Assembly: GCA_902500775.1 (NCBI GenBank)
Contig: CABVRZ010000001.1
Coordinates: 153,182-217,181, forward strand
DNA length: 64,000 nt
Direction of reading: 5' to 3'
DNA from: an uncultured Nitrospira sp.
GTDB taxonomy: Bacteria; Nitrospirota; Nitrospiria; Nitrospirales; Nitrospiraceae
In this document: positions 36,794 through 56,397 of the stretch, piece after piece
Layout of the letters: every line of letters begins with the position of its first letter
Position numbering within the stretch: the first letter of the stretch is position 1
The notes under the pieces: generated by a model
The model's database searches: none
Seen by the model: only the letters and a program-made list of their open reading frames with translations
Told to the model about the DNA's origin: nothing
Program-made: the position numbers and the translations under genes

Positions 36794-39700
36794 ATGGACG
36801 GATTGCAGATTGCGCGACGGCTGATCGCCGAGGAACGTGAGAAGAAGACAGGATTTCTCGACCTCGGCAACCTTCAACTCACAGAGGTTCCGGTTGAGCT
36901 GTTCGAACTCACCCATTTGCGTGGATTGAACCTTGGAACATGGTATGTGGACGAGCACGGGAGGGATCAGAAATCCCGCAATAGCAATGAGAACGGCATC
37001 AACGAGCTGCGAACATTGCCGAGTGCGTTCAGCACTTTAGGCAACCTGACAACGCTGTCTCTACATGGTAATCCTATCGGCGACCTCAGTCCGCTCGCCC
37101 CCCTCACCGCCTTGCAGCAGCTCAACTGCTCGGACACTCAAGTCAGCGATCTCTCGCCCCTCCACACCCTCACCGCCTTGCAACACCTGGACTGCTTAGG
37201 CACCCCTATCAGCGATCTCTCGCCACTCAGCCCCCTCACCGCCTTGCAACAGCTGCACTGCTGGAACACCCAAGTCAGCGATCTCAGCCCGCTCCACTCC
37301 CTCACCGCCTTACAGCAGCTCAACTACTCGAACACCCAAGTCAGCGATCTCTCGCCCCTCCACACCCTCACCGCCTTACAGCAGCTCAACTACTCGAACA
37401 CTCAAGTCAGCGATCTCTCGCCCCTCCACACCCTCACCGCCTTGCAGCAGCTCAACTGCTCGGACACCCAAGTCAGCGATCTCTCGCCGTTGATTGGCCT
37501 ATTGAATTTGGGCAAACTCGCAGCGAACAACCTTAGGCTTGAAGACTTCCCGCGACAGTTGTTATTCCAAAAAATCCTTCAAGAACTTACTCTCTACGGA
37601 ACTACCATTCCTGGAATACCAGCTGAGATCTTGTCAGATTACTACAGCACAAACTGTCTCGACAATTTATGCAATCACTTGCTGGATGTGGAGCATGGCT
37701 CTGAAAAAGTGTGTGAGGCCAAGCTCGTCGTGCTGGGTAACGGTCGAGTCGGCAAGACCCAGATCTGTCGGCGCCTGCGTGGACTTCCCTACGACGAGGC
37801 CGTGCCCTCCACCCACGGCATCACCGTCACGGCAGAACCGTGGGCCGGTTCGACGAGCGGGGAGGTGCTGAACATCTGGGACTTCGGTGGGCAGGACATC
37901 TATCACGGAGCCCATACGCTCTTTATGAAGACCAGTGCCGTCTTCTTGATCGCCTGGCATCCGGACTTTGAGGCCACGGGGGAACAGCCGATCGACGGTC
38001 AGTGGTTCCGCAATTATCCGCTCTCCTACTGGCTGGACTATGTGCGGACGCTTGGACGGAAAGATTGTCCCATTCTCGTCGTGCAGACTCGCTGCGATCG
38101 GCCCGAGCAAGAAGTCCGCCGTCTGCCCGTGGACGATGCTTTCCTCACATTCCCCTCGCTGAAGCCCTGCTGGTATAGCGCCAAAACCCCACGAGGCCAA
38201 GGTGCATTGAATGATGCACTCCATGACGCCATCCGCTATCTCCGCGAGCGAGATGGGATCGTGGCGATCGGGATTGGAGGGGCAGCGGTCATCCGGCAGC
38301 TTGAAACCTGGCGAAACGAGGACCAGGCACTTCCGACAGAACAACGGCTTCATCGGACCCTGTCACAAGAAGAATTCAGAAATCTCTGCGCGCACACAGG
38401 AGGAGTCCGCTCACCGGAAAGCTTGCTCGCGTATTTACATAATGTCGGCGTCGTTTTCTATCAACCTCACCTGTTCGACAATCGGATCATCCTTGACCAA
38501 TCATGGGCCTTGGACGCGGTGTACGCTGTCTTTGACCGTCAGGAGACCTATCCATACATTCGGAGTCTACGTGGTCGATTCACACAGTCGCTCCTCGCCT
38601 TATCGATCTGGCGTGATTACTCGGACGCGGAACAACAGCTCTTCTTGAGCCTGATGGAATCCTGTGGAATCGCGTTTATTCATCGTGAAGCCGAACCGAA
38701 GCTGGGACTCCCCGTGGAATACCTCGCGCCGGATCTGCTTCCCGATAAAGATGCCGTGGCTGATCAACTCACCGGCAGGTGGAACGACCAGGAGGAAAGC
38801 CGGCAGCTTATCTACGATTATCCATTTCTCCATACGGGACTGATGCGTGCGCTGCTGTGCGACATTGGGAGCCGATCCAAAGAAGCGGGTGTCTATTGGA
38901 AATATGGGGCGTGGCTCTATGAAACCTCGACAGGCTGTCGCGCCTTGATCGAACAGCAGATGCAGGATGATCGCCGCGGTCGCATCGTCCTCACTGTGCA
39001 GGGCCTCCGACACCAAGAGCTCGTTCGTTGGCTGCGTGAGCGGATCGAGCAGCGCAATCGGCTATTCGGCCACCCTGAGCTACCACCTACGGTGGATGAC
39101 TTGAGCAAGGACCTGCCGCTTCCAGTGCATCCGGATGCACGACGACTCGTTGAATCGCAATCAGACGAGCTTGCGTCAACGTCGACAGCTGCGCGTATGG
39201 CTCAAGAACCGATCTTCGGGAAGCCCCCAGAATCGTTCTTCCCGTCTCATGAGCCTTTGGTGTTCATTTCTTACGCGTGGGGCGATGACACACCTGCCGG
39301 TCAACAACGAGCCAAGGTCGTGGATGATCTTTGCGCCGCGCTCGGTCAGCACGGTATCACGGTCCGCCGTGACCAAGCTGAGATGCGGCCCGGCGATCTG
39401 ATCAGCGAGTTCATGGATCGCCTGACGGAAGGCGACTGTATTCTTGTCGTCATCAGCGACAAGTATCTGCGATCGGAATACTGCATGTATGAACTCTTCC
39501 GAATCTTTCGGAACTGCGCTGATAAGCCGGAACGCTTTCTCCGTAAGGTGATTCCATTGCTTCTTCCCGATTCGAAAATTGACGAGCTAGACGACCGGCT
39601 GGAACGGGCGGTTCATTGGACCACCCTAGAGGAGAAACTAGAATCACGCGTGAAGGACAATGTCGTTGCAGTCGGAACTGAGTTCTTTCGGAAGTTCAAG

Positions 39701-39835
39701 TTGATCGGCGAGTTCGCCCGCAACACGTCAGACATGCTGGAGCATCTAGTCGACAAACTCCAGCCACGCGACTTCGACCGCCAGGCCCAGGAAGGATTCA
39801 AGGAGATATTGGACCAAATTACGAGAAGACGTTGA
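36794..39835 (+). CDS. LRR-Roc-COR-TIR (ROCO) protein
   Basis: A 1013-residue multidomain protein. Residues 1-95 are an N-terminal LRR cap. About 99-245 are six to seven 22-residue SDS22-type leucine-rich repeats (core SPLHTLTALQQLN). About 308-480 are a Roc GTPase, with P-loop GNGRVGKT (315-322), G3 DFGGQD (363-368) and a TRCD G4 motif. About 500-800 are a COR domain. About 817-960 are a TIR domain with FISYAW and YCMYELF, in which E900 is the NADase-type catalytic Glu. The layout resembles NLR-like immune switches: sensor, GTPase, effector. The TIR would be expected to cleave NAD+ or to signal. The ATG at 36794 lacks a strong ribosome site. It sits in an accessory island with toxin-antitoxin-type genes. 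Confidence 0.93.
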   Translation: MDGLQIARRLIAEEREKKTGFLDLGNLQLTEVPVELFELTHLRGLNLGTWYVDEHGRDQKSRNSNENGINELRTLPSAFSTLGNLTTLSLHGNPIGDLSPLAPLTALQQLNCSDTQVSDLSPLHTLTALQHLDCLGTPISDLSPLSPLTALQQLHCWNTQVSDLSPLHSLTALQQLNYSNTQVSDLSPLHTLTALQQLNYSNTQVSDLSPLHTLTALQQLNCSDTQVSDLSPLIGLLNLGKLAANNLRLEDFPRQLLFQKILQELTLYGTTIPGIPAEILSDYYSTNCLDNLCNHLLDVEHGSEKVCEAKLVVLGNGRVGKTQICRRLRGLPYDEAVPSTHGITVTAEPWAGSTSGEVLNIWDFGGQDIYHGAHTLFMKTSAVFLIAWHPDFEATGEQPIDGQWFRNYPLSYWLDYVRTLGRKDCPILVVQTRCDRPEQEVRRLPVDDAFLTFPSLKPCWYSAKTPRGQGALNDALHDAIRYLRERDGIVAIGIGGAAVIRQLETWRNEDQALPTEQRLHRTLSQEEFRNLCAHTGGVRSPESLLAYLHNVGVVFYQPHLFDNRIILDQSWALDAVYAVFDRQETYPYIRSLRGRFTQSLLALSIWRDYSDAEQQLFLSLMESCGIAFIHREAEPKLGLPVEYLAPDLLPDKDAVADQLTGRWNDQEESRQLIYDYPFLHTGLMRALLCDIGSRSKEAGVYWKYGAWLYETSTGCRALIEQQMQDDRRGRIVLTVQGLRHQELVRWLRERIEQRNRLFGHPELPPTVDDLSKDLPLPVHPDARRLVESQSDELASTSTAARMAQEPIFGKPPESFFPSHEPLVFISYAWGDDTPAGQQRAKVVDDLCAALGQHGITVRRDQAEMRPGDLISEFMDRLTEGDCILVVISDKYLRSEYCMYELFRIFRNCADKPERFLRKVIPLLLPDSKIDELDDRLERAVHWTTLEEKLESRVKDNVVAVGTEFFRKFKLIGEFARNTSDMLEHLVDKLQPRDFDRQAQEGFKEILDQITRRR
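37088..37489 (+). repeat. Tandem 66-bp repeats inside the ROCO gene
   Basis: Six in-frame 66-bp units start at 37088, 37154, 37220, 37286, 37352 and 37418, and a partial seventh starts at 37484. The last three full units are almost identical in DNA as well as protein, while the second and third are more diverged. Recent unequal crossover is likely, and copy number may vary between strains. Confidence 0.9.
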
Positions 39836-43620: not shown

Positions 43621-43860
43621 ATGACACGCAAGGAGCGCTTTCCCCCATCGTCTGGAGAGCACTGCTCCAGAGAACCCACTTGCACGCTCTCCGGCCAATC
43701 TGGCAGCCGTCCAACCGACACCTGGTCAGAACGCCGGTTGGTCCTTCAACTCGCGATCGGAGCACCTATAGACGTGCTCCGTGATCGCACGTATTCCATA
43801 TTGATCACTTGTCTTCAAAGTGCAGATCAAGCGACATCGTCTCGTTTGGCTTCACAGTAA
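43621..43860 (+). CDS. Possible small protein, unrecognised
   Basis: An open frame of 79 residues whose ATG is preceded by a near-perfect ribosome site (GGAGGTAACCAAATC). The product is hydrophilic with no recognised motif, and its last 34 bases overlap the end of the decayed secreted-protein gene on the other strand. It is supported only by the ribosome site. Confidence 0.3.
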   Translation: MTRKERFPPSSGEHCSREPTCTLSGQSGSRPTDTWSERRLVLQLAIGAPIDVLRDRTYSILITCLQSADQATSSRLASQ

Positions 43861-44405
43861 TCTTCTGCACCTGCATACCCAAGATTCGGATGCCATGCTT
43901 TGATACGGTACCTACCAGCAGGGAGCTCAGTGAGCGCAAATGAACCGTTAATGTCCGTCACGGCATCGTAGGGATTGTCGATCGCATAGCCCTCAATGTC
44001 GTGGGCCACGGGACCTCGATTGACCACGATGACTCGTCGGTTGTCACTCACGACCGTGCCGAATGGCAGGAACTGGCACATTGTCGCTTCTACATCAGCA
44101 TCGGTGAACGTAAATAGTTTGCCTTTCAGAATGCCATCCACCACGGATCGCTGACTTCCTTTAGGAGGCGGTGCCCATCTCTATCCGACTGCTCTCCCCA
44201 AAATGCACGGACTGGGTAGCGGTGCAGTTTGAATTCTTTTGGTTCCGGCACGGTGCCCTTGAGCGTGACCTTGCCCTGTACGATTGCGCCATCTGTCACG
44301 GATCCCGACTCATAGGCCTCGGCCTGTTCGCGCAGTCCGAGACTCAGCATCGCTGAAGCAAGGACCGTGACCAGCAATCCCCCTCCGAATCACTTTACGC
44401 ATGAC
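43827..44405 (-). pseudogene. Frameshifted carboxypeptidase-regulatory-like secreted protein
   Basis: The minus strand holds pieces of one protein in successive frames. A start ATGCGTAAAGTGATTCGG (about 44402) shifts frame into LLVTVLASAMLSLGL...YESGSVTDGAIVQGKVTLKGTVPEPKEF. Near 44144 the frame shifts again to VVDGILKGKLFTFTDADVEATMCQFLPFGTVVSDNRRV and GPVAHDIEGYAIDNPYDAVTD...PAGRYRIKAWHP. This is a secreted beta-sandwich protein of the kind common in Nitrospira, but the copper/His-rich middle usually found before DNPY is missing. Two shifts plus an internal deletion make it a pseudogene. Confidence 0.65.
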
Positions 44406-44855: not shown

Positions 44856-46250
44856 ATGTTCAGACCCATTCCAAAAACGACATTCCTCCGAAGAGTTTCC
44901 TCTCGGCTGATCGCATCCGGCCTCCTGATCCTTACCTTGGTGCTCTCCGTCATACTGGTGTTGAGCCTGGAACGAGAAAAACTCTTGCTCCGAAGTTCCG
45001 TCGAAGGTGCGAGGGCTCCGACGGAACTATTCCACGCCCTCTGGGGATCGCGCGGCGATCTAATTGTCGAAACTCTCCTTGTCTTCCTAGTCAGCGTGAT
45101 CGGGATCGCGGCCGTCATGACGTTTCTTCACTATGACGCCACGCGACGGACCCTGGAAGAAGTCAAGGGACTCGCCCGGAACATTCTCGAGAGCATCCCC
45201 ACAGGTGTCCTTACAGTTAATCAGGAAGGACTCGTCAGTGCGATGAATCCCGCAGCCGAGGACGTGTTGAATCACTCTTCATCAGAGCTGCTGGGGAAAG
45301 GCTATGACGCAGTGTTTCCTGAAACCGATCCGATTCGACAGGCGCTCAACGAGGCATTGCGAGCGCACCGGCATGTGGGCCAAGAAGACGTCCGCTACGA
45401 AAGCAGGGATCTGCCCCCACGGACCATTCGCGTGAGTACGGCGGAACTGACTGGGGACGATAACAAGACCGCGGGCGTGATTCTACAGGTGCAGGATGTC
45501 ACCGAATGGCTCGGCCTTGAACAGCGAGTGCGTGCTGCAGAAAAGTTAGCGGCGTTGCATACGCTGTCCGCAGGGGTAGCGCATGAACTGCGGAATCCGT
45601 TAAGCGCCATGGATCTGAATTTGCACCTATTGGAAGAAGAACTCAAGGAGAACGGAACGCCAGGGAAACGGGGTTGGCAATACCTCCATGTCTTGAACGC
45701 GGAATGCCGCCGTTTGTCCGGGATCCTGGATAACTTCATGAAATTTGCACGCCCAGGTGTGGTGGACCTACACGACATTAACGCCCAGACGCTGGTTGAG
45801 CATATTATCGCCTTGATGCAGTTCGAGGCTGAGGAACGTCACATTCGCCTTGAACATACAGTGGGAAAAGATTTGCCCTTGGTGCTGGGAGACGAGACCC
45901 AAATCAGCCAAGTCTTGGTCAACATCATCGTGAATGCCTTCCACGCCATGCCGGATGGTGGACGCTGCCGAATTTCAGTGATGCAACGGGAGATTGACAA
46001 GAGGCTATGGGTGGAGATCGCCGTGGAAGACAGCGGTGTGGGAATTCCTAAGGAGGAGCTTTCCCGCTTGTTTGAGCCCTTCTACACGACCAAGCCGACC
46101 GGTACCGGACTTGGTCTCGCCATCGCGTATCGGATCATGCAGGATCACGGCGGAACCATTCGGGTGTCGAGTGCCCCAGGGAGCGGAACGACGGTAGTGA
46201 CCCAATTTCCCGTCGCGATCAATCAACTTCAAGCCATCGTGGGATCATGA
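44856..46250 (+). CDS. Membrane histidine kinase with PAS domain
   Basis: A 464-residue sensor kinase. TM1 is at about 15-37 and TM2 at about 70-92, separated by a short periplasmic loop of some 30 residues that is too small for a large sensor. A PAS domain (about 105-220) follows, then HisKA with the phospho-acceptor H243 in SAGVAHELRNPLSA, and HATPase_c with DSGVGIPKEEL and GTGLGLAIAY. It would sense an intracellular or membrane signal (redox or quinone state is plausible for a PAS) and phosphorylate the regulator whose gene overlaps by four bases (ATGA at 46247). Confidence 0.93.
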   Translation: MFRPIPKTTFLRRVSSRLIASGLLILTLVLSVILVLSLEREKLLLRSSVEGARAPTELFHALWGSRGDLIVETLLVFLVSVIGIAAVMTFLHYDATRRTLEEVKGLARNILESIPTGVLTVNQEGLVSAMNPAAEDVLNHSSSELLGKGYDAVFPETDPIRQALNEALRAHRHVGQEDVRYESRDLPPRTIRVSTAELTGDDNKTAGVILQVQDVTEWLGLEQRVRAAEKLAALHTLSAGVAHELRNPLSAMDLNLHLLEEELKENGTPGKRGWQYLHVLNAECRRLSGILDNFMKFARPGVVDLHDINAQTLVEHIIALMQFEAEERHIRLEHTVGKDLPLVLGDETQISQVLVNIIVNAFHAMPDGGRCRISVMQREIDKRLWVEIAVEDSGVGIPKEELSRLFEPFYTTKPTGTGLGLAIAYRIMQDHGGTIRVSSAPGSGTTVVTQFPVAINQLQAIVGS

Positions 46251-47605
46251 CGCAGACTGTTCATATTCTCGTCGTCGATGATGAGGTGAATATCCGCAAC
46301 GCCTTGGTAATCCTCTTGGAGAAAAAGGGTTACCAAGTTTCCGGGATAGGTACAGGGGAGGAAGCCCTGCGGTTGCTCGAAGACGCCCAGACTGATCTCG
46401 TGATCACCGACCTGAGGATGCCTGGGATGAGCGGAATGGAGTTCCTCCGTCACGTAAAGGACCGATGGCCTGACACGGAAGTTGTGGTGATGACGGCGTT
46501 TGGTTCGATCGACACGGCGGTGGAAGCGATGCGTCTGGGTGCCTACGACTACCTGACAAAGCCGATCGACCGAGAGCGGTTTCCGGTCGTCGTACTGAAA
46601 GCGCTCGAACGCCGTGCCTTAGCCTGTGAAAATAGGCACCTACGGGACCGCCTTACCACCAGAACACGTTTTGAGCAGATGGTCGGCGAAAGTGAAGCCA
46701 TGCAACGTGTCTATAATCTGGTGGAGATGGTGGCGGACAGCGACGTGACCGTTTTGCTCACGGGTGAAAGTGGAACGGGGAAAGAACTGGTCGCACGTGC
46801 GATCCACCACAAGAGCCTGAGGGCCGATGGGCCGTTCATCACCGTCAATTGTGGAGCCTTACCCGAGAATCTCTTCGAGAGCGAGTTGTTCGGGTATGAG
46901 AAGGGCGCCTTCACCGGCGCGATGTCAACCAAGGTGGGGCGGTTCGAACTAGCCGACGGCGGTACCCTGCTGCTGGATGAAGTGGGCGAAATGTCTCTCA
47001 AGTCTCAAGTGGATTTTCTACGGGTTTTGGAAACCAAGGAGTTCAGGCGGTTAGGAGGCACGAAACTGATCACAGTGGATACCAGAATCATTGCTGCCAC
47101 CAACCGAAATCTGAGGGAAACGGTCACACAGGGAGGGTTTCGAGAAGATCTCTACTATCGGCTGAATGTCGTGCCCCTCCATCTTCCGCCGCTCCGCGAA
47201 CGAGGCGATGATATCCCGCTCCTTGTCACACGGTTTCTGGGAGCATGCTGTGCTCAACACCAGCGGAAGTCCAAAGAAGTTTCACGGGACGCCATGCGAC
47301 TACTTCGGTTGTATGCCTGGCCCGGCAACATTCGTCAACTGAGAAACCTGATGGAGCGGTTGGTGGTCACCGTGCCGGATACAACGATCCAACCGATGCA
47401 CCTTCCGGAAGAAATCCAGGTCAGTAAGGAAGAGCACCGCACCATGATGGTGACACTTGGAACGTCGATTGAGCAGATAGAGCGAGAAGTGATCAGTCGA
47501 ACCTTGAAGGAAGTCACCAATCATCGGGAACAGGCCGCCAAACTGTTAGGGATTAGTTTGAGAACCCTCCAATATAAGATCAAAGAATACGGCATTCGCG
47601 ATTAA
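46247..47605 (+). CDS. NtrC-family response regulator (sigma-54 activator)
   Basis: A 452-residue regulator. The receiver domain has the acidic pair VVDDE, the phospho-acceptor D55 in LVITDLRMPG and the Lys in YLTKPID. The AAA+ domain has Walker A GESGTGKE, sigma-54 contact loop GAFTGA and IAATNRN. The Fis-type helix-turn-helix ends the protein (HREQAAKLLGISLRTLQYKI). It activates sigma-54 RNA polymerase when phosphorylated by the overlapping kinase. A sigma-54 promoter lies 267 bases downstream of its stop, ahead of the Hyf-like genes, making that operon the probable target. Confidence 0.95.
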   Translation: MTQTVHILVVDDEVNIRNALVILLEKKGYQVSGIGTGEEALRLLEDAQTDLVITDLRMPGMSGMEFLRHVKDRWPDTEVVVMTAFGSIDTAVEAMRLGAYDYLTKPIDRERFPVVVLKALERRALACENRHLRDRLTTRTRFEQMVGESEAMQRVYNLVEMVADSDVTVLLTGESGTGKELVARAIHHKSLRADGPFITVNCGALPENLFESELFGYEKGAFTGAMSTKVGRFELADGGTLLLDEVGEMSLKSQVDFLRVLETKEFRRLGGTKLITVDTRIIAATNRNLRETVTQGGFREDLYYRLNVVPLHLPPLRERGDDIPLLVTRFLGACCAQHQRKSKEVSRDAMRLLRLYAWPGNIRQLRNLMERLVVTVPDTTIQPMHLPEEIQVSKEEHRTMMVTLGTSIEQIEREVISRTLKEVTNHREQAAKLLGISLRTLQYKIKEYGIRD

Positions 47606-47871: not shown

Positions 47872-47887
47872 TGGCACTTTCCCTGCA
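47872..47887 (+). promoter_or_regulatory. Sigma-54 (-24/-12) promoter
   Basis: TGGCACTTTCCCTGCA matches the consensus TGGCACRNNNNTTGCW at all but two positions, with the exact 12-base offset between GG and GC. Transcription would start near 47897, ahead of the small genes and the Hyf-like operon. It lies downstream of a gene for a sigma-54 activator and of dyad sites spaced as enhancers. Confidence 0.75.
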
Positions 47888-48269: not shown

Positions 48270-48386
48270 GGTGTTTGAATAAATGACGTCCAGGGATCAG
48301 GCGCCATCTCGAAACCAGTTTCAGGAAGAAGGTGAGATGTGTTGCACAAGCTTACGGAACATCGAGGTCAAGAGGAGCATGACATC

Positions 48387-48665
48387 ATGGTAAATCAGGC
48401 GGACATCGTCGTGGTGCACCATCCGAGAGGAGCGGTGGCACTGGTCTGGGTTGACCTCTCCGCAGGAGCCGTCGTGACAACTCATGCCGGATTGCGAGAC
48501 ACCTTGCGTTGTGGACTTCTAGACTGGGCCGGACAGATTGTGCGGACACGAGATGGACACATCTTTCTCTCAGCGGTGTACGATCATTTTCCCCTGAAGG
48601 GATATCCTGTCCATTGGTTCAGTGCTCCAGGGGTGATCGGCACACACCCCTCTTATCGTGTGTAG
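48387..48665 (+). CDS. Small hypothetical protein
   Basis: A 92-residue product, unrecognised. It is rich in beta-type segments (IVVVHHPRGAVALVWVDLSAGAVVTTH) with a Trp/His-containing end. GAGGAG lies nine bases before the ATG at 48387; a TTG at 48339 would extend it by 16 residues. Its position between the TPR-like and the 35-residue genes suggests it is part of the same sigma-54 transcript. Confidence 0.5.
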   Translation: MVNQADIVVVHHPRGAVALVWVDLSAGAVVTTHAGLRDTLRCGLLDWAGQIVRTRDGHIFLSAVYDHFPLKGYPVHWFSAPGVIGTHPSYRV

Positions 48666-49052: not shown

Positions 49053-51080
49053 ATGCTGAATCTGGTTTGGCTTCTTCTGGGCGGATATGTAGCCGGGATA
49101 GTGCTGCCTTTCTGTCTACCGGGGCGACCCGAGTCCCGACGTCTCACGTCCAGTGTTGCCGCCATCGTGGCAACCAGTGCAGGTATCGTTCTCGGGATTC
49201 TTGGCCTCACGTCTTCAGAACCGGTCACAGGCACTCTGGCTTCCACAATCCCTTTGCTCACCTTATCAATTCGCGTCGATCCACTCGCGGCGTTCTTCGT
49301 TTTCACGATCTCCGTTGTGGCTCTTGCTGCGTCGGTTTATGCCATTGGATACCTGCAGCATTTCGAGGGGTACGCATCGACCGCCAAGCTCGGAGCGCTT
49401 TTTAACGCCTATCTCCTCTGTATGACGCTCGTCATCCTCGCGGACAACGCGTTCTTCTTCTTGCTCGCGTGGGAGCTCATGTCGCTCCTATCTTATTTTC
49501 TCGTAGTCACTGAGCATGAGAAGGCGGAGGTGCGATACGCTGGATTGTTTTACTTGATCATGACGCATGTCGGAACTGCGTTCATTGTCATGGCGTTCTT
49601 GATCTTCTTCCAGACTGCCGGGTCGTTCTCCTTTGAAGCTTTTCGACATCCGGAGCAGCCCCTGCCGGAGGGCATGAGAACCCTCGTCTTTCTCATGATC
49701 TTACTGGGGTTCGGCACGAAGGCAGGCATCGTGCCGCTCCATGTGTGGTTGCCCTATGCGCATCCGGTGGCACCGTCGCACGTCTCTGCCGTGATGTCTG
49801 GTGTCATGATTAAAACCGCGATCTATGGTCTGATCCGCGTCTATTTCGATTTCTTCGGTGGGCAGTTCCCGTGGTGGTGGGGCTTCACCGTGCTGTTCCT
49901 GGGAGCCACCTCGTCGTTACTCGGGGTGATGTACGCCTTGATGGAGCATGACCTCAAAAGGCTCCTGGCGTTTCACAGTGTAGAAAACATCGGGATCATC
50001 TTATTGGGCATCGGAGCGGGCATGATCTTTCAGTCCTACGGGTTGAAGGAACTTGCCGCGTTGGGACTGCTGGCCGCACTCTATCATACGATCAACCATG
50101 CCTTGTTTAAAGCCCTCCTGTTCTTAGGGGCCGGCTCACTTCTCTATGCGACGCAGACGCGCAATTTGGAGGAGTACGGCGGGTTGCTTCGACGCATGCC
50201 TTGGACGGGGTCCTTTTTTTTGATCGGAGCCGTGTCGATTTCTGCGCTGCCTCCCACGAATGGATTCGTGAGCGAGTGGCTGTTGTTCCAAAGTCTCTTT
50301 CTCAGTTTTCAGATTCCGACGGTGTTTCTCAAGCTGATGCTGCCAATTGCCGCAGCGATCTTGGCCCTCACTAGCGTGCTGGCCTTGGCCTGCTTCGCAA
50401 AAGCCTTCGGGATCGCGTTTCTTGCACGGCCACGAAGTATGCATGCCCGTCGTGCTGAGGAGGTTCCGGCTCCGATGCGGATCGGAATGGGGATCTTGGC
50501 TACTCTTTGTGTGGCGCTGGGCATTGTCCCGATGGTGGTAGTGCCGCTATTGGATCGAGTTGTCGCTCCTCTGGCAGAGATATCGATCACCAGCAAGGTC
50601 ATGGCAATCGATGGATGGGCGCTAGCCCCGGTGAATGTCGAATTCTCAAGCCTATCCACGCCTGCCCTTGCGTTGTCGCTTGTCGCGCTGGCGATGTTGG
50701 GGTTGGGGCTCGCCGTGGCGCTCGGTGGTCGACTCACAACACGTCATTCCAAAACCTGGGGCTGTGGGATCAATCTCACGGCTCACATGCAATACACCGC
50801 GACTGGTTTCGTTCAACCGATTAAACGAGTCTTCAGTACGATTTACCAACCAACGGTCAAACTCGAGACGGAGTTTCTCCACGAATCCAGATATTTTGCC
50901 AAACGGAGACACTTTGAGTTTCACATTGAACCGATCTTTGAGAAGTATCTCTACGATCCCTTGTTAGCGTTCTTTGCAACGCTGGCCGACCGCCTGAAGA
51001 TCATTCAGGCCGGCAGTCTGCACCTCTATCTAACCTATATGTTCGTCGCACTGATTGTGTTGCTGTTGCTTGCGGTGTAA
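49053..51080 (+). CDS. hyfB: Hydrogenase-4-type membrane subunit HyfB (antiporter-like)
   Basis: A 675-residue polytopic protein related to HyfB/NuoL and Mrp antiporters. It has about 14-16 TM segments. Family segments are VDPLAAFFVFTISV near residue 75, FLLAWELMSLLSYFLV with the conserved Glu, GFGTKAGIVPLHVWLPYAHPVAPSHVSAVMSG with the channel Lys and His, and HTINHALFKALLFLGAGS. It forms an ion (H+ or Na+) half-channel. It starts the six-gene Hyf-like operon and is followed by hyfC after three bases. No ribosome site is clear before the ATG at 49053. Confidence 0.93.
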   Translation: MLNLVWLLLGGYVAGIVLPFCLPGRPESRRLTSSVAAIVATSAGIVLGILGLTSSEPVTGTLASTIPLLTLSIRVDPLAAFFVFTISVVALAASVYAIGYLQHFEGYASTAKLGALFNAYLLCMTLVILADNAFFFLLAWELMSLLSYFLVVTEHEKAEVRYAGLFYLIMTHVGTAFIVMAFLIFFQTAGSFSFEAFRHPEQPLPEGMRTLVFLMILLGFGTKAGIVPLHVWLPYAHPVAPSHVSAVMSGVMIKTAIYGLIRVYFDFFGGQFPWWWGFTVLFLGATSSLLGVMYALMEHDLKRLLAFHSVENIGIILLGIGAGMIFQSYGLKELAALGLLAALYHTINHALFKALLFLGAGSLLYATQTRNLEEYGGLLRRMPWTGSFFLIGAVSISALPPTNGFVSEWLLFQSLFLSFQIPTVFLKLMLPIAAAILALTSVLALACFAKAFGIAFLARPRSMHARRAEEVPAPMRIGMGILATLCVALGIVPMVVVPLLDRVVAPLAEISITSKVMAIDGWALAPVNVEFSSLSTPALALSLVALAMLGLGLAVALGGRLTTRHSKTWGCGINLTAHMQYTATGFVQPIKRVFSTIYQPTVKLETEFLHESRYFAKRRHFEFHIEPIFEKYLYDPLLAFFATLADRLKIIQAGSLHLYLTYMFVALIVLLLLAV

Positions 51081-51083
51081 CCA

Positions 51084-52034
51084 ATGTTCCTGGCGATCAT
51101 GCTCATCGTGGCTCAGACAGCGGTCTTACTCGCCATCTCGCCGTTTCTCGTGGGGCTCATTCGGAAGGTCAAAGCACGTCTGCAGTTGCGGCGGGGCGCA
51201 AGCGTCCTCCAGCCATACGCCGACTTAGCGAAACTCTTCCAGAAGCAGCCGCTCCTCTCGACGACCACTTCTTGGATCTTCACGGCGACGCCTTATATCG
51301 TGTTTGGCTCTACGTTGACGGCGGGCTTACTGGTCCCCACGTTCACTTCGCAGACGCCCATGAACTTTGCGGGAAACATTATTGCGCTGGTCTATCTTTT
51401 GGCGTTGGGTACGTTTTTCTTGATTCTCGCAGGACTCGATACTGGATCGGTCTTTGGCGGGATGGGCAGCAGCCGAGAAGCGATCGTGGCGTCACTGGCT
51501 GAGCCGGCCATGATTCTCGCGATTTTTGCAATTGCCCTGACCAATGGATCGACGAATGTGAGTACCATTGTTCATAAGACCGCGCTGCTCGAAGGTATTG
51601 TCACGGACCCCTCACCACATCTGATGGCGCTGGCAGCCCTCTTCATCGTGGCGCTCGCCGAGACCGGGCGGGTGCCGGTCGATAATCCGGCGACACACTT
51701 AGAACTCACCATGATCCATGAGGCGATGCTCCTTGAATACTCAGGACGCTATCTAGCCCTACTCGAATGGGCAGCCGGTCTAAAACTCGCGGTATTTCTT
51801 TCTTTAATCGCCAACGTCTTCGCACCATGGGGCATCGCGACAACAGTAACTCCTTCCGCGATGGGAATCGGACTTCTGGCGTACATAGTGAAGACCGCAG
51901 CACTCGCGATATTCATCGGAGTCATCGAATGTATGTTCGCCAAACTGCGGTTGTTTAGGGTCACGGATCTGCTGGGCGTGGCGTTCATCCTTGCCCTGCT
52001 CGGATTGCTGTTCTTCTATATTCTTCGGAGCTGA
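51084..52034 (+). CDS. hyfC: Hyf-like membrane anchor subunit HyfC (NuoH-like)
   Basis: A 316-residue subunit of the NuoH/HyfC/HycD family. It has about eight TM segments, with the quinone- or peripheral-arm-contact loop VKARLQLRRGASVLQPYADLAKLFQKQ, and AETGRVPVDNPATHLELTMIHEAMLLEY, the NuoH-type acidic loop. It links the peripheral FeS subunits to the antiporter-like subunits and may bind quinone. It is tightly packed between hyfB and hyfE. Confidence 0.94.
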   Translation: MFLAIMLIVAQTAVLLAISPFLVGLIRKVKARLQLRRGASVLQPYADLAKLFQKQPLLSTTTSWIFTATPYIVFGSTLTAGLLVPTFTSQTPMNFAGNIIALVYLLALGTFFLILAGLDTGSVFGGMGSSREAIVASLAEPAMILAIFAIALTNGSTNVSTIVHKTALLEGIVTDPSPHLMALAALFIVALAETGRVPVDNPATHLELTMIHEAMLLEYSGRYLALLEWAAGLKLAVFLSLIANVFAPWGIATTVTPSAMGIGLLAYIVKTAALAIFIGVIECMFAKLRLFRVTDLLGVAFILALLGLLFFYILRS

Positions 52035-52038
52035 ACGG

Positions 52039-52704
52039 ATGCAGGGACTTTCGTCCCTTGGCTCACAACTGGTCGACTTATGCTCAGCCTTGCTCTTGCT
52101 GACCTGTTTCGCAATTGTCGCGCAACGGCGGCTCTCGGCCTGCGTTGACTTGTTCGCACTGCAGTCAGCCTTTCTCGTCGTCACCGCGGCGCTGGTCGCC
52201 TATCTGACTGGCAACCATCACATCTATCTCGCAGCTGGGCTGACCGGTGTCATCAAAGTAATCATTATTCCTCGGGTCCTCAAGAAAGTCATTGATCGCC
52301 TCAACGTCAAGCGGGAACTAGTGATGCACGTGAACGTGCCGACCGGATTATTAATTTGCGGTGGACTGGTGATGTTGGCATTTTTCATCGCGCAGCCGAT
52401 CATTCCGCTGGGGTCTCTCCTCACGCGAGATTCGTTGGCCATCGCCCTCGCGATCGTACTCATTGGATTGTTTACGATGATCGCAAGACACCAAGCGGTC
52501 TCCCAACTGGTGGGCTTTCTTGTCCTGGAAAACGGACTATTTTTGGGTGCCACCGCCGCCACCTATGGCATGCCGTTGGTCGTTGAATTGGGCGTCTTCT
52601 TCGATGTGCTCATTGCGACATTGATCGCAGGAATCTACACGAATCGCTTGCAAGACGCATTCGACAGCGTGGATACGGACCGACTCACCGTGCTGAAAGA
52701 ATAG
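52039..52704 (+). CDS. hyfE: Hyf-like membrane subunit HyfE (NuoK-like)
   Basis: A 221-residue protein with about seven hydrophobic segments. The C-terminal half is NuoK/MnhC-like (LLICGGLVMLAFFIAQPI, then VGFLVLENGLFLGATAATYGMP with a buried Glu on the ion path). The first third adds extra helices, as in HyfE. The ATG at 52039 is four bases beyond hyfC. It forms part of the ion-translocating core. Confidence 0.9.
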   Translation: MQGLSSLGSQLVDLCSALLLLTCFAIVAQRRLSACVDLFALQSAFLVVTAALVAYLTGNHHIYLAAGLTGVIKVIIIPRVLKKVIDRLNVKRELVMHVNVPTGLLICGGLVMLAFFIAQPIIPLGSLLTRDSLAIALAIVLIGLFTMIARHQAVSQLVGFLVLENGLFLGATAATYGMPLVVELGVFFDVLIATLIAGIYTNRLQDAFDSVDTDRLTVLKE

Positions 52705-52715
52705 CCGAGGCCTCC

Positions 52716-54254
52716 GTGATGATCGCAGTCCTAGTCTTGTTGATCGCCCCACTTCTCGCGGGAGGGCTGAGCCTGGTCGTCCACCGCTCTGGATGGCTGC
52801 ATGGAATCAATCTCGCGAGCATGGGCGCGCTTGTCACGGCAGAAGTGGTGATCACCCACACCGTGCTGAGAAGCGGTCCCGTGACGGCATTGGACCAGTT
52901 AGTCTATCTCGACGCCTTGTCGACCTTCATCCTCTTCATTATCGGAACGGTCGGACTGGCCTGTTCGTTCTATATGCGTTCGTATATGGATGAACAAGTC
53001 GCGAGAGGCGTGATCGCGCCGTCACAACTCAACCAGTTCTTTTTTCTGTTCCACATGTTCGTGTTGGCCATGGTGATTGCGACCATGGCGAACAGTGTTG
53101 GGGTCCAGTGGGTGGCCATCGAAGCGACGACGCTCGCGACCACCTTTCTGATTGCGTTTTGGAGGCGACGCGAGTCGCTGGAGGCCGGGTGGAAATACCT
53201 CATCTTGTGCTCGGTCGGCATTTCACTTGCCTTGTTTGGTGTCGTGCTGCTGTATTACTCCTCACTCCATGTGCTGAGCGACGCCAGTCAGGGATTGAAC
53301 GTGACGCACCTACTACCCGTGGCTGATCGGTTGAACCCCCAGGTGCTGAAGTTAGCGTTTATCTTTATCCTGGTGGGATATGGCACCAAGGTGGGCCTCG
53401 TCCCGATGCATAGTTGGCTGCCGGATGCCTACACCGAGGCGCCGGCGCCGGTAGTGGCCATGCTCGCCGGTGTCCTCGAAGTGGTTGCAGCCTATGCAAT
53501 CCTGAGGGTGAGGGTCATTGTTGACCATGCCGTTCCGTTTGCCTTTGCTGGTGGACTACTCGCGTTGCTTGGCTTTGCGTCATTCCTGACCGCGGCGTTC
53601 TTTATCACCATTCAGCACAACTATAAGCGGCTGTTCGCCTATTCCAGCATCGAGCATATGGGGATCGCCATGATCGGACTTGGGGTCGGGGGTCCCCTCG
53701 GAACCTTCGGAGGTCTGTTTCACCTCTTGAATCATGCGCTAGCGAAATCGATGGCCTTTTTTGCTGCAGGCAACATTCACCGTCGCTTTCACACGGTGGA
53801 GATCGGTCAGGTCCAGGGGGTAGCCATGGCGCAACCTTGGACGGCCATGGCGCTGATGATCTCAGGATTGACCTTATCGGCGCTTCCTCCATTCGCAGCG
53901 TTTTCCAGCGAGGTCCAGGTTGTCGCGGCCTTGGCATCGCAGGGGGTTCCGGAAATGGAGCTTGCCGGTACCGTAGGCCTGGTGACGGTGACATTGTCGG
54001 ACCAATTCAGCAGAGTCGCATTAGTGTCGGTATTTCTGGTCGGTGCGGTGCTTTCGTTCGGCGGACTGCTGTATCGCATCACCGGCATGGTGTGGGGAAC
54101 ACCGCCTGAAGGTATGGTCCGAGAGGAAATCTGGACGCTCGGTCATCTACCGATTATTCTGCTGACCATGGCATTGATGGGGTTCACCTTTTTTCTTCCA
54201 CCGCCGATCCAACAACTCTTGGAACGGGCGACAAGCATAATTTTAATTCATTAG
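52716..54254 (+). CDS. hyfF: Hyf-like membrane subunit HyfF (antiporter-like)
   Basis: A 512-residue antiporter-like subunit related to HyfF/NuoN, with about 14 TM segments. The channel Lys is in VGYGTKVGLVPMHSWLPDAYTEAPAPVVAMLAG, and FAYSSIEHMGIAMIGLGVGG and HLLNHALAKSMAFFAAGN follow in the standard order. It starts at GTG 52716 or ATG 52719. It forms a second ion half-channel of the complex. No hyfD-type third antiporter subunit is present in the operon. Confidence 0.93.
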   Translation: MMIAVLVLLIAPLLAGGLSLVVHRSGWLHGINLASMGALVTAEVVITHTVLRSGPVTALDQLVYLDALSTFILFIIGTVGLACSFYMRSYMDEQVARGVIAPSQLNQFFFLFHMFVLAMVIATMANSVGVQWVAIEATTLATTFLIAFWRRRESLEAGWKYLILCSVGISLALFGVVLLYYSSLHVLSDASQGLNVTHLLPVADRLNPQVLKLAFIFILVGYGTKVGLVPMHSWLPDAYTEAPAPVVAMLAGVLEVVAAYAILRVRVIVDHAVPFAFAGGLLALLGFASFLTAAFFITIQHNYKRLFAYSSIEHMGIAMIGLGVGGPLGTFGGLFHLLNHALAKSMAFFAAGNIHRRFHTVEIGQVQGVAMAQPWTAMALMISGLTLSALPPFAAFSSEVQVVAALASQGVPEMELAGTVGLVTVTLSDQFSRVALVSVFLVGAVLSFGGLLYRITGMVWGTPPEGMVREEIWTLGHLPIILLTMALMGFTFFLPPPIQQLLERATSIILIH

Positions 54255-54268
54255 GAGGGAGAATCGTC

Positions 54269-55864
54269 ATGCCAGAGACGAGGTCGTATGACAATGCGCT
54301 CAAGATGGCCTTTCCATCCATCGTACAGGTTGGTGGCACACCGCATAGGGCATACTCCCGGTTCCTGGTCCCCAAAGATCTGCTCTCGACTATTACTCGT
54401 TATCTTCATACCCAACCAGATTTACGCGGTCGACTGACGCTGTTATGGGCCAGTGATCATCGTCCTACTCGTGAGGCATACGAGATCCACTACCTCTTTA
54501 CGTTAGAGGCGTCTCACCATTGGGTGGTGTTGTCCATTGAACTCGCCGACACCGATCGGCTGTTTCCGTCTATTACCTCTCATATTCATGCGGCTCAGTG
54601 GTATGAGCGCGAGATTCGGGACATGTTCGGCTTGATTCCTGAAGGGCATCCGGACTTACGACGACTGGTCCGACACGAACACTGGCCACAGGGGACACAT
54701 CCGCTCAAAAAAGATTTTCACTGGAACCACGTCTTGGAACGCCAACAAGGGGAGTATCGATTCCGCCACATTGAAGGAGAAGGGGTATTTGAAGTGCCAG
54801 TGGGCCCCATTCATGCGGGAATCATCGAGCCCGGTCACTTTCGATTTTTTGTAGCTGGTGAACCCATCATGCAACTTGAGCTCCGCCACTTTTGGAAACA
54901 TCGTGGTGTGGAAAAGCTGTTCGAGCAACTCACGCTCATCGACGCAGTGCTGCTGGCAGAACGCGTGTCCGGAGATACAACGGTCGGACACGCACTTGCC
55001 TATTGCCAAGCGGTGGAAACACTTTTGGACATCCAGGTGCCACGACGCGCCAAGTATCTTCGTTCGCTCTTTCTCGAGCTGGAACGACTGTACAATCATC
55101 TCGGCGATATCGGAGCCATGTGCAATGACACCGCCTATTCGCTGGCCCATGCCCATTGCGGGCGGATGAAGGAGCGAGTCATGCAACTCAATGACCGGCT
55201 GGTTGGCTCGCGCTTCCTGCGAGGCGTCATGCAGGTCGGAGGAGTCAGCTGGGACGTGGATCGCAAGGAACTCAGCAACATCGCTCAAGAGCTCACCGAC
55301 ATTCAGAAGGACTTCTCCGAAGTGGGTGCCATTATCTTTGCCAATGCCTCCCTCACGGATCGGCTGGAGACCACAGGGGTCCTGACTGAACAGATTGCCT
55401 GGGATCACGCGGTCATGGGAGTCGTAGGGCGAGCCTCAGGCAGAGATTGTGATCTGCGGCGTGATCGCCCCTTCGCCGCATATGACGAACTACCCGTCAA
55501 TGTGGCTCTTTACCGTTATGGAGACGTGAGGGCCAGGTTACGTGTTCGCGGTGATGAGATCCACGAATCTATCCGGCTGATTCGCGAAATTTGCAGCAGG
55601 ATTCCTGACGGTCCACTTGCCAGTGAACCAAGCAAGTTGGGAACTCCCGGCGACTGGACATTGGCAGCAGTTGAAGGGTGGCGCGGCGAGATTTTGTATA
55701 TGGTGATGGCGGGGGAAGACGGACGGATTCAGCGATGCAAGGTCCGTGACCCATCATTCGTGAATTGGCCAGCCATTCAATGGGCAGTACTGGGCAATAT
55801 TATCCCGGACTTTCCACTCATCAACAAGAGCTTCAACCTCTCATACGCGGGGAATGATCTGTAG
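54269..55864 (+). CDS. hyfG: HyfG-like large subunit, NiFe-binding cysteines absent
   Basis: A 531-residue fusion of a NuoC-like domain (about 20-165, with WYEREIRDMFGLIPEGHPDLRRL) and a NuoD/hydrogenase-large-subunit domain (about 175-531). The motifs that hold nickel are altered. The first, CxxC after ERV in hydrogenases, reads ERVSGDTTVGHALAY (S234 and T237). The C-terminal DPCxxC reads DPSFVN (S496, N499). All four Ni ligands are lost, so it cannot carry a NiFe centre. This matches the Ehr class of respiratory complexes. AGGAGGGAG precedes the ATG. Confidence 0.92.
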   Translation: MPETRSYDNALKMAFPSIVQVGGTPHRAYSRFLVPKDLLSTITRYLHTQPDLRGRLTLLWASDHRPTREAYEIHYLFTLEASHHWVVLSIELADTDRLFPSITSHIHAAQWYEREIRDMFGLIPEGHPDLRRLVRHEHWPQGTHPLKKDFHWNHVLERQQGEYRFRHIEGEGVFEVPVGPIHAGIIEPGHFRFFVAGEPIMQLELRHFWKHRGVEKLFEQLTLIDAVLLAERVSGDTTVGHALAYCQAVETLLDIQVPRRAKYLRSLFLELERLYNHLGDIGAMCNDTAYSLAHAHCGRMKERVMQLNDRLVGSRFLRGVMQVGGVSWDVDRKELSNIAQELTDIQKDFSEVGAIIFANASLTDRLETTGVLTEQIAWDHAVMGVVGRASGRDCDLRRDRPFAAYDELPVNVALYRYGDVRARLRVRGDEIHESIRLIREICSRIPDGPLASEPSKLGTPGDWTLAAVEGWRGEILYMVMAGEDGRIQRCKVRDPSFVNWPAIQWAVLGNIIPDFPLINKSFNLSYAGNDL

Positions 55865-55875
55865 GGAGGCCCAAC

Positions 55876-56397
55876 ATGTTCCGCATCATCAAGAAAAGTC
55901 TCAAGATCGGGGTCGTGACAGGTCGCTATCAAAGAGCGGAAAGGCCTACGATACCAGTTACGCCCGAAGCTACTGAAAGATCCAGGCTCTTCAAACGGTC
56001 GCTGGCGATCCGTGAAGTGGATACCGGCTCGTGCAACGCCTGTGAGATGGAAATGAACGCACTCCTGAACCCCGTGTACGATGCCGAGCGGTTCGGTATT
56101 CACATTGCGGCTTCGCCACGTCATGCTGATGCGTTGGTCGTGACGGGGCCAGTGACCATCAATATGGAAGGAGCATTGAAAGATGTGTACAAACAAACAC
56201 CTGATCCGAAGATCGTCATTGCCCTCGGCGATTGTGCGATCAACTGCGGCTTATTCAAAGGGAGCTACGCGGTCACGGGTCCAGTCGATCGTCATGTTCC
56301 TGTCGATATGAGCATCTCTGGTTGCCCTCCGCGTCCAGCTGAAATTCTTGCGGCGCTGTCGGAATTACGAGAGGATGACGCTACGGCAGAGCGGTGA
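55876..56397 (+). CDS. hyfI: HyfI-like FeS small subunit (NuoB-like)
   Basis: A 173-residue small subunit of the NuoB/HyfI family. It keeps the ligands of the proximal 4Fe-4S cluster: C53 and C56 in GSCNACEME, C120 in ALGDCAINCG and C150 in SGCPPRP. It would pass electrons to or from the large subunit or quinone near HyfC. AGGGAGG precedes the ATG, 11 bases after hyfG. It ends the operon; no ferredoxin-like hyfA or hyfH gene follows, so the electron entry module is encoded elsewhere. Confidence 0.94.
   Translation: MFRIIKKSLKIGVVTGRYQRAERPTIPVTPEATERSRLFKRSLAIREVDTGSCNACEMEMNALLNPVYDAERFGIHIAASPRHADALVVTGPVTINMEGALKDVYKQTPDPKIVIALGDCAINCGLFKGSYAVTGPVDRHVPVDMSISGCPPRPAEILAALSELREDDATAER

Follow-up and report, generated by a model that had tools for sequence, protein, structure and literature searches.

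An Ehr complex of Nitrospira without nickel ligands and its relatives in an apparent series of cofactor losses

The closest described counterpart of the complex analysed here is the Ehr complex of the Nitrospirales, which about half of the genomes encode and in which the Ni-Fe sites are absent (PMC12342949); a second description has also been published (PMC10284858). These complexes, encoded by ehrABCDLS, have six subunits, no Ni-Fe ligands and no ferredoxin subunit gene, all of which also holds for our locus. The hyfBCEFGI operon of Nitrospira had earlier been read as a putative hydrogenase (PMC5596200). The closest solved structure is that of Escherichia coli formate hydrogenlyase/hydrogenase-4 (HycBCDEFG, HyfA-J; 7z0s). 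Other related systems are complex I (Nuo), which has a common fold of the shared subunits, and the MBS sulfane reductase (6u8y), a complex I relative that has likewise lost the Ni-Fe site and lacks the quinone His and Tyr. MBS retains two large-subunit cysteines, lacks the proton-path glutamate and has a three-cysteine cluster (PMC7684303).

The stretch of DNA analysed (the window) comprises 64,000 nucleotides from an uncultured Nitrospira sp., the host genome being 4.53 Mb, Nitrospira-like and equipped with further NuoC/NuoD loci of its own. Six co-directional genes in the order B-C-E-F-G-I occupy positions 49053-56397 and provide a complete set of Ehr subunits: two NuoL/M/N-like subunits, a NuoH-like and a HyfE-like subunit, the large subunit and the small subunit.

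49053..51080, + strand: HyfB/EhrA, NuoL-like antiporter-type subunit, 675 aa (NCBIfam hydrogenase 4 subunit B above cut-off; HycC 7z0s_C, E 4.4e-82)
51084..52034, + strand: HyfC/EhrB, NuoH-like subunit, 316 aa (Pfam NADHdh; HycD 7z0s_D, E 6.5e-48)
52039..52704, + strand: HyfE/EhrC, membrane subunit (NCBIfam hydrogenase 4 membrane subunit, E 2.7e-29, under cut-off; 221-aa orthologues)
52716..54254, + strand: HyfF/EhrD, second antiporter-type subunit, 512 aa (Pfam Proton_antipo_M; channel residues)
54269..55864, + strand: HyfG/EhrL, 30-kDa domain fused to the large subunit, Ni ligands absent, 531 aa
55876..56397, + strand: HyfI/EhrS, NuoB-like small subunit, 173 aa (MbhJ 6cfw_J, E 7e-37; four proximal [4Fe-4S] cysteines retained)

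The start of HyfE/EhrC was taken from relatives, an in-frame TTG being present further upstream at 51991. Judged by its genes the locus is a six-subunit Ehr complex, and nothing essential sets it apart from the described Nitrospirales set, of which it is a member. That it is an Ehr complex and that its Ni site is lost are together almost certain.

The large subunit gene (54269-55864) is open over 531 codons, and over its full length the product is a homologue of HycE, a subunit of E. coli formate hydrogenlyase (7z0s_E, E 2.9e-82). An AlphaFold model of the protein gave the HycE chain as the best fold match (Z 47.2, rmsd 2.2, 519 residues). The model has low confidence at residues 164-210, the cavity loop, and therefore no geometry was taken from it. 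Like formate hydrogenlyase, the window complex has a fused 30-kDa/large subunit and a CxxC-type small subunit, but it lacks the four Ni ligands and the HycF/HycB-type ferredoxin subunits. Upon alignment HycE 'DRVCGICG' falls on 'ERVSGDTT' and HycE 'SLDPCYSC' on 'SFNLSYAG' (521-528), such that the first cysteine pair becomes S234 and T237 and the second S525 and G528.

54968..54979, + strand: S234-G-D-T237, standing where the first CxxC pair of Ni ligands would be (aligned to HycE, the host's NuoDs and relatives)
55745..55765, + strand: RDPSFVN (493-499), ordinary NuoD-type sequence (alignment)
55841..55852, + strand: S525-Y-A-G528, the true DPCxxC site, in the place of the second CxxC pair of Ni ligands (alignment)

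None of the four cysteine ligands of a group 4 [NiFe] hydrogenase is present in the window protein. A sequence-only reading of this DNA had claimed the loss of all four, which stands, but had placed the C-terminal motif at DPSFVN, which does not. RDPSFVN matches HycE 'RAATYAN' and 'RAPSFIH' and 'RTPSFAH' of the host's own NuoDs and is the NuoD 'RxPSF' stretch; the alignment thus rules it out as the Ni motif, the true site being 521-528. Among the findings that would undo it, the same reading had named a sequencing error. The same replacements recur in each close relative that was read, about 50 loci of which some share a genome, and the gene is carried by 88 of 175 Nitrospira-family genomes, hence neither chance nor error accounts for them. 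With the motifs conserved across many independent genomes a pseudogene can also be dismissed.

The maturation genes provide a test that is independent of the ligand motif. HypD was absent from 33 of the 48 carriers whose stated completeness is at least 99%, seven of the 33 being single-contig genomes, and it was no commoner in carriers than in non-carriers (odds ratio 1.08, p 0.88). By these counts the Hyp maturation that belongs to a group 4 [NiFe] hydrogenase is not a consistent feature of the carriers, and in those that lack the HypD maturase a Ni-Fe centre could therefore not be built. The genome of the window does have HypD, so the argument comes from its relatives. Among relatives having all four cysteines HypD was found in six of eight; the two others, planctomycete MAG loci (L106 and L118), have the four Ni-ligand cysteines in genomes where HypD was not found, possibly owing to incompleteness. 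A working hydrogenase-4 or formate hydrogenlyase, the earlier annotation in Nitrospira, has the overall homology and that reading in its favor (PMC5596200). However, all close relatives read have zero of four Ni ligands, many carriers lack HypD, and expression in Nitrospira moscoviensis was not raised by H2 (PMC12342949), which leaves this function with hardly any probability; we consider it ruled out by the absent ligands together with the carriers devoid of HypD. Assignment to the Ehr class rather than to the hydrogenases, as the sequence-only reading had proposed, is thus backed by the ligand loss, by the many carriers without HypD and by the published Nitrospirales Ehr (PMC12342949, PMC10284858). 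Loss of the Ni site in Nitrospira Ehr is a correct rediscovery of what was already known, having been described in 2023 and 2025.

The small subunit has kept its ligands. C53, C56, C120 and C150 are all present, as had been claimed, in a CxxC arrangement (C53xxC56) and spaced as in MbhJ and HycG. Outside the CPR-type group the proximal-cluster cysteines are kept in 89 of the 90 small subunits checked (in the exception residue 53 is Pro), an argument for the cluster being in use. An N-terminal 2[4Fe-4S] ferredoxin domain is found on 13 of the 101 small subunits gathered, among them relatives from a collection scan that supplied the best 80 loci of a longer list. The 13 comprise all eight four-cysteine members, the intermediate L142 and four Ni-less members. 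Three loci (L098, L113 and L119) have small subunits in which the fused ferredoxin domain is present and most of its cluster cysteines are lost. The window protein begins with a leader that is followed directly by the small subunit proper, with no ferredoxin domain in between.

55876..55932, + strand: leader MFRIIKKSLKIGVVTGRYQ of the small subunit, resembling the leader ahead of the ferredoxin domain in fused relatives

No HyfA/HyfH-like or HycF-like ferredoxin gene was found in or adjoining the window operon. The claim that the donor module is missing from the operon is accordingly borne out, and a likely cause can be named: relatives encode the module as a fusion with the small subunit, the window has the leader alone, and most likely the module was deleted from a fused ancestor. 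A search for a donor gene by conserved neighborhood gave none across the window and 40 loci of the phylum, nor across 80 named loci.

The cavity left by the Ni-Fe site is conserved, the motifs HAGIIEPGHF and NKSF..SY being near invariant, and by sequence comparison it fits no characterized type.

54827..54829, + strand: E187, aligned to the Glu of HycE 'DEPGHF', 97% conserved

We take the glutamate of HycE 'DEPGHF', from knowledge of the family, to be the proton-transfer glutamate of hydrogenases, and E187 is likely to be the proton-path glutamate of the window protein. Unlike MBS, the window complex lacks the large-subunit cysteines and has both the aligned glutamate and four cluster cysteines. 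It also differs from complex I: the operon has neither an NADH module nor NuoI, the small-subunit motif is CxxC where complex I has adjacent cysteines (CC), and the quinone-headgroup His and Tyr are absent from the large subunit whereas the NuoDs of the same genome have both (THG, DY). The quinone dependence that the sequence-only reading had suggested examining thus finds no residue support, although absence of these residues is still compatible with a quinone. A complex I-like quinone reductase that holds its quinone by other than the usual residues would account for the shared fold and for the resemblance of HyfC to NuoH of the quinone channel. Such an enzyme seems quite improbable given that the headgroup residues are missing here and kept in the host's own NuoDs, and that complete complex I-type loci, judged by their NuoC/NuoD genes, lie elsewhere in the genome.

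In the membrane arm the main channel residues are kept. HyfB, the NuoL-like subunit, has E141, K223, K254 and K353 and the second antiporter HyfF has E136, K225 and K344; these positions are 96-100% conserved (57 and 68 aligned sequences, respectively), with E141, K223 and K353 of HyfB and all three HyfF residues conserved in 100% of the loci aligned. In helix 8 of the second antiporter the usual Lys is replaced by E255 in the window and mostly by Leu elsewhere. Ion pumping by the window complex would fit these intact residues. Four loci (L051, L052, L063 and L066) have an extra HyfF-like antiporter gene between the HyfE-like gene and the large subunit; hence the number of pump subunits varies within the class.

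Upstream of the operon lie a two-component system, a putative promoter and a small conserved gene.

44856..46250, + strand: PAS histidine kinase adjoining the operon (Pfam; recurs beside the operon in relatives)
46247..47605, + strand: sigma-54-dependent response regulator (Pfam; recurs beside the operon across the class)
47872..47887, + strand: sigma-54-like promoter TGGCACTTTCCCTGCA, past the regulator and ahead of the operon (1 mismatch)
48339..48665, + strand: small conserved gene, about 92 aa (in other genera belongs to an OFOR-like cassette that precedes hyfB)

Sigma-54-like sites number no more than expected by chance over the window as a whole and only the recurring position is of interest: a site was found about 200-270 bases past the regulator gene in six loci. 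The two-component system probably controls the complex. In other genera an OFOR-like cassette precedes hyfB, made up of the ~92-aa protein together with one PFOR_II, one PF02552 and one cupredoxin-like protein, of which the window retains only the ~92-aa gene. One locus (L066) has a ~92-aa-like stretch fused to PF02552, and 35 of 42 carriers of the ~92-aa gene also have the complex, a count that ignores kinship. These OFOR-like neighbors give a weak pointer to ferredoxin. A CO dehydrogenase beside the complex was reported for 'Ca. N. nitrosa' (PMC5596200). For the loci read here a true CO dehydrogenase is rejected in that the PF02552 neighbors look like OFOR subunits; they were read as such because the host genome itself has PF02552 with OFOR alpha, beta and gamma genes. 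Two further genes of the window are recorded as observations. A cupredoxin/carboxypeptidase-regulatory-like gene at 43827-44377 (- strand) consists of two overlapping fragments, and relatives have intact copies near the Ehr operon. At 36794-39835 (+ strand) the translation gives a large LRR protein whose repeats are nearly identical and which also has a Roc-like GTPase part and, at its C terminus, a TIR-like domain.

The neighborhood also bears on formate as the electron source. A formate dehydrogenase feeding Ehr has been proposed for Riflemargulisbacteria (PMC6349859) and suggested for Geobacter, where the G. sulfurreducens Ehr subunits were more abundant on formate (PMC7894505), and Nitrospira is known to oxidize formate (PMC5596200). 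Against this, no formate dehydrogenase lies near the window operon or recurs among the loci clustered, and comammox genomes were reported to have the operon and to lack formate oxidation genes (PMC5596200). We regard a formate-linked complex as improbable.

In the tree of the family the four-cysteine members are mostly basal, on weakly supported branches and with a single long outgroup, and the Ni-less members form a large derived group. N. moscoviensis (L093) and a Geobacteraceae MAG (L159) fall into one group with the window in this tree, which has no characterized EhrL reference. A single common loss of the Ni site for all Ni-less members except L142 was not rejected (p-AU 0.574). We therefore set aside several independent losses, only the partial loss in L142 being clearly separate. 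That locus (L142:4391-5824, a Desulfosporosinus MAG) reads S..C and S..C, with Ser first and the second Cys kept in each pair, and by this pattern is a case in which two ligands were lost separately. An Omnitrophota locus (L152) reads C..A and S..A. Taken together, the sequences suggest a stepwise series of losses, of the Ni-Fe site, of the clusters in the ferredoxin, of the ferredoxin domain itself and, among CPR bacteria, of the last [4Fe-4S] ligands too, through which the key channel residues stayed almost invariant.

The CPR forms go furthest. The missing large-subunit cysteines of CPR Ehr were reported in 2020 (PMC7304191); the literature searched does not mention the small subunit, which is no proof of novelty. 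In these small subunits SCNxCE becomes SDNACE, STNACE or S(S/T)NAEE, GDC becomes GDD or GDG and PGCPP becomes PGDPP, the cluster ligands being replaced by D, T, S, E or G and the predicted fold remaining of the NuoB/MbhJ type. The loss was seen in 13 of 13 CPR genomes checked, many CPR genomes being metagenome-assembled. In eight of these 13 no other PF01058 protein was found, and some of the others have a different kind of cysteine-rich small subunit. When 379 genomes of the CPR phylum were drawn separately, the loss was found in 12 of 14 matches (four seen before, one partial), the other two belonging to a different, four-cysteine family. The loci that have lost both the Ni and the small-subunit Fe-S ligands (L099, L100, L101, L103, L108, L109, L111, L135, L137, L147 and L156; L172-L184; L189-L199) retain the channel residues despite these losses, and in five of them (L100, L103, L135, L137 and L147) ATP synthase beta/epsilon genes lie directly upstream of the complex.

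These observations feed the main rival explanation, in which the complex would be a redox-independent translocator akin to an Mrp-type antiporter, its hydrophilic arm a structural or regulatory remnant and its last [4Fe-4S] cluster a sensor or a structural element. The stepwise loss of cofactors in relatives, down to the last ligands in CPR and with channel residues 100% conserved, argues for such a translocator, as do the ATP synthase genes of the five CPR loci. However, the Nitrospira members retain the four cluster cysteines and a conserved cavity with E187, and the CPR form is a distant relative that says nothing direct about the window. For the Nitrospira complex we thus consider redox-independent translocation unlikely.

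On balance we favor, somewhat cautiously, a redox-driven ion pump whose electrons pass through the only [4Fe-4S] cluster left in the complex. The small subunit would be the direct docking site of a soluble one-electron carrier, most likely ferredoxin, which would exchange electrons by way of this cluster with a small molecule occupying the former Ni-Fe cavity, the exchange being coupled to ion movement by the membrane arm. In an autotroph the complex may also run in reverse and use the ion gradient to reduce ferredoxin. A redox-driven pump agrees with subunits that are homologous to those of formate hydrogenlyase and MBH, the disappearance of every Ni ligand throughout the family with carriers devoid of HypD, the retained cluster cysteines, the near invariant cavity motifs and the conserved channel Glu, Lys and His. 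Ferredoxin is hinted at by the OFOR-like genes that several genera have next to the operon and by the ~92-aa neighbor, and the promoter and regulator adjoin the operon. On the other side no donor gene is conserved beside the operon, neither the complex I quinone residues nor the features of MBS are present, the CPR relatives keep the whole complex without even the last cluster, and the OFOR link is weak.

About half of the Nitrospira-family genomes thus encode a complete ion-pump-like complex that was earlier misread as formate hydrogenlyase. What is added here, and deserves the attention of specialists, is the cofactor-loss series together with the end state reached in CPR. The CPR forms, having no Fe-S ligand at all, provide a natural control. 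The end state would be a complex I relative without a redox centre, in which ion translocation would run without electron transfer; that this occurs in the family, and that the Nitrospira complex may already work in this way, is a tentative proposal to which we give less than even credence. If the CPR forms still move ions, then complex I-type pumping need not depend on electron transfer, which, if true, would bear on how the two are coupled in complex I.
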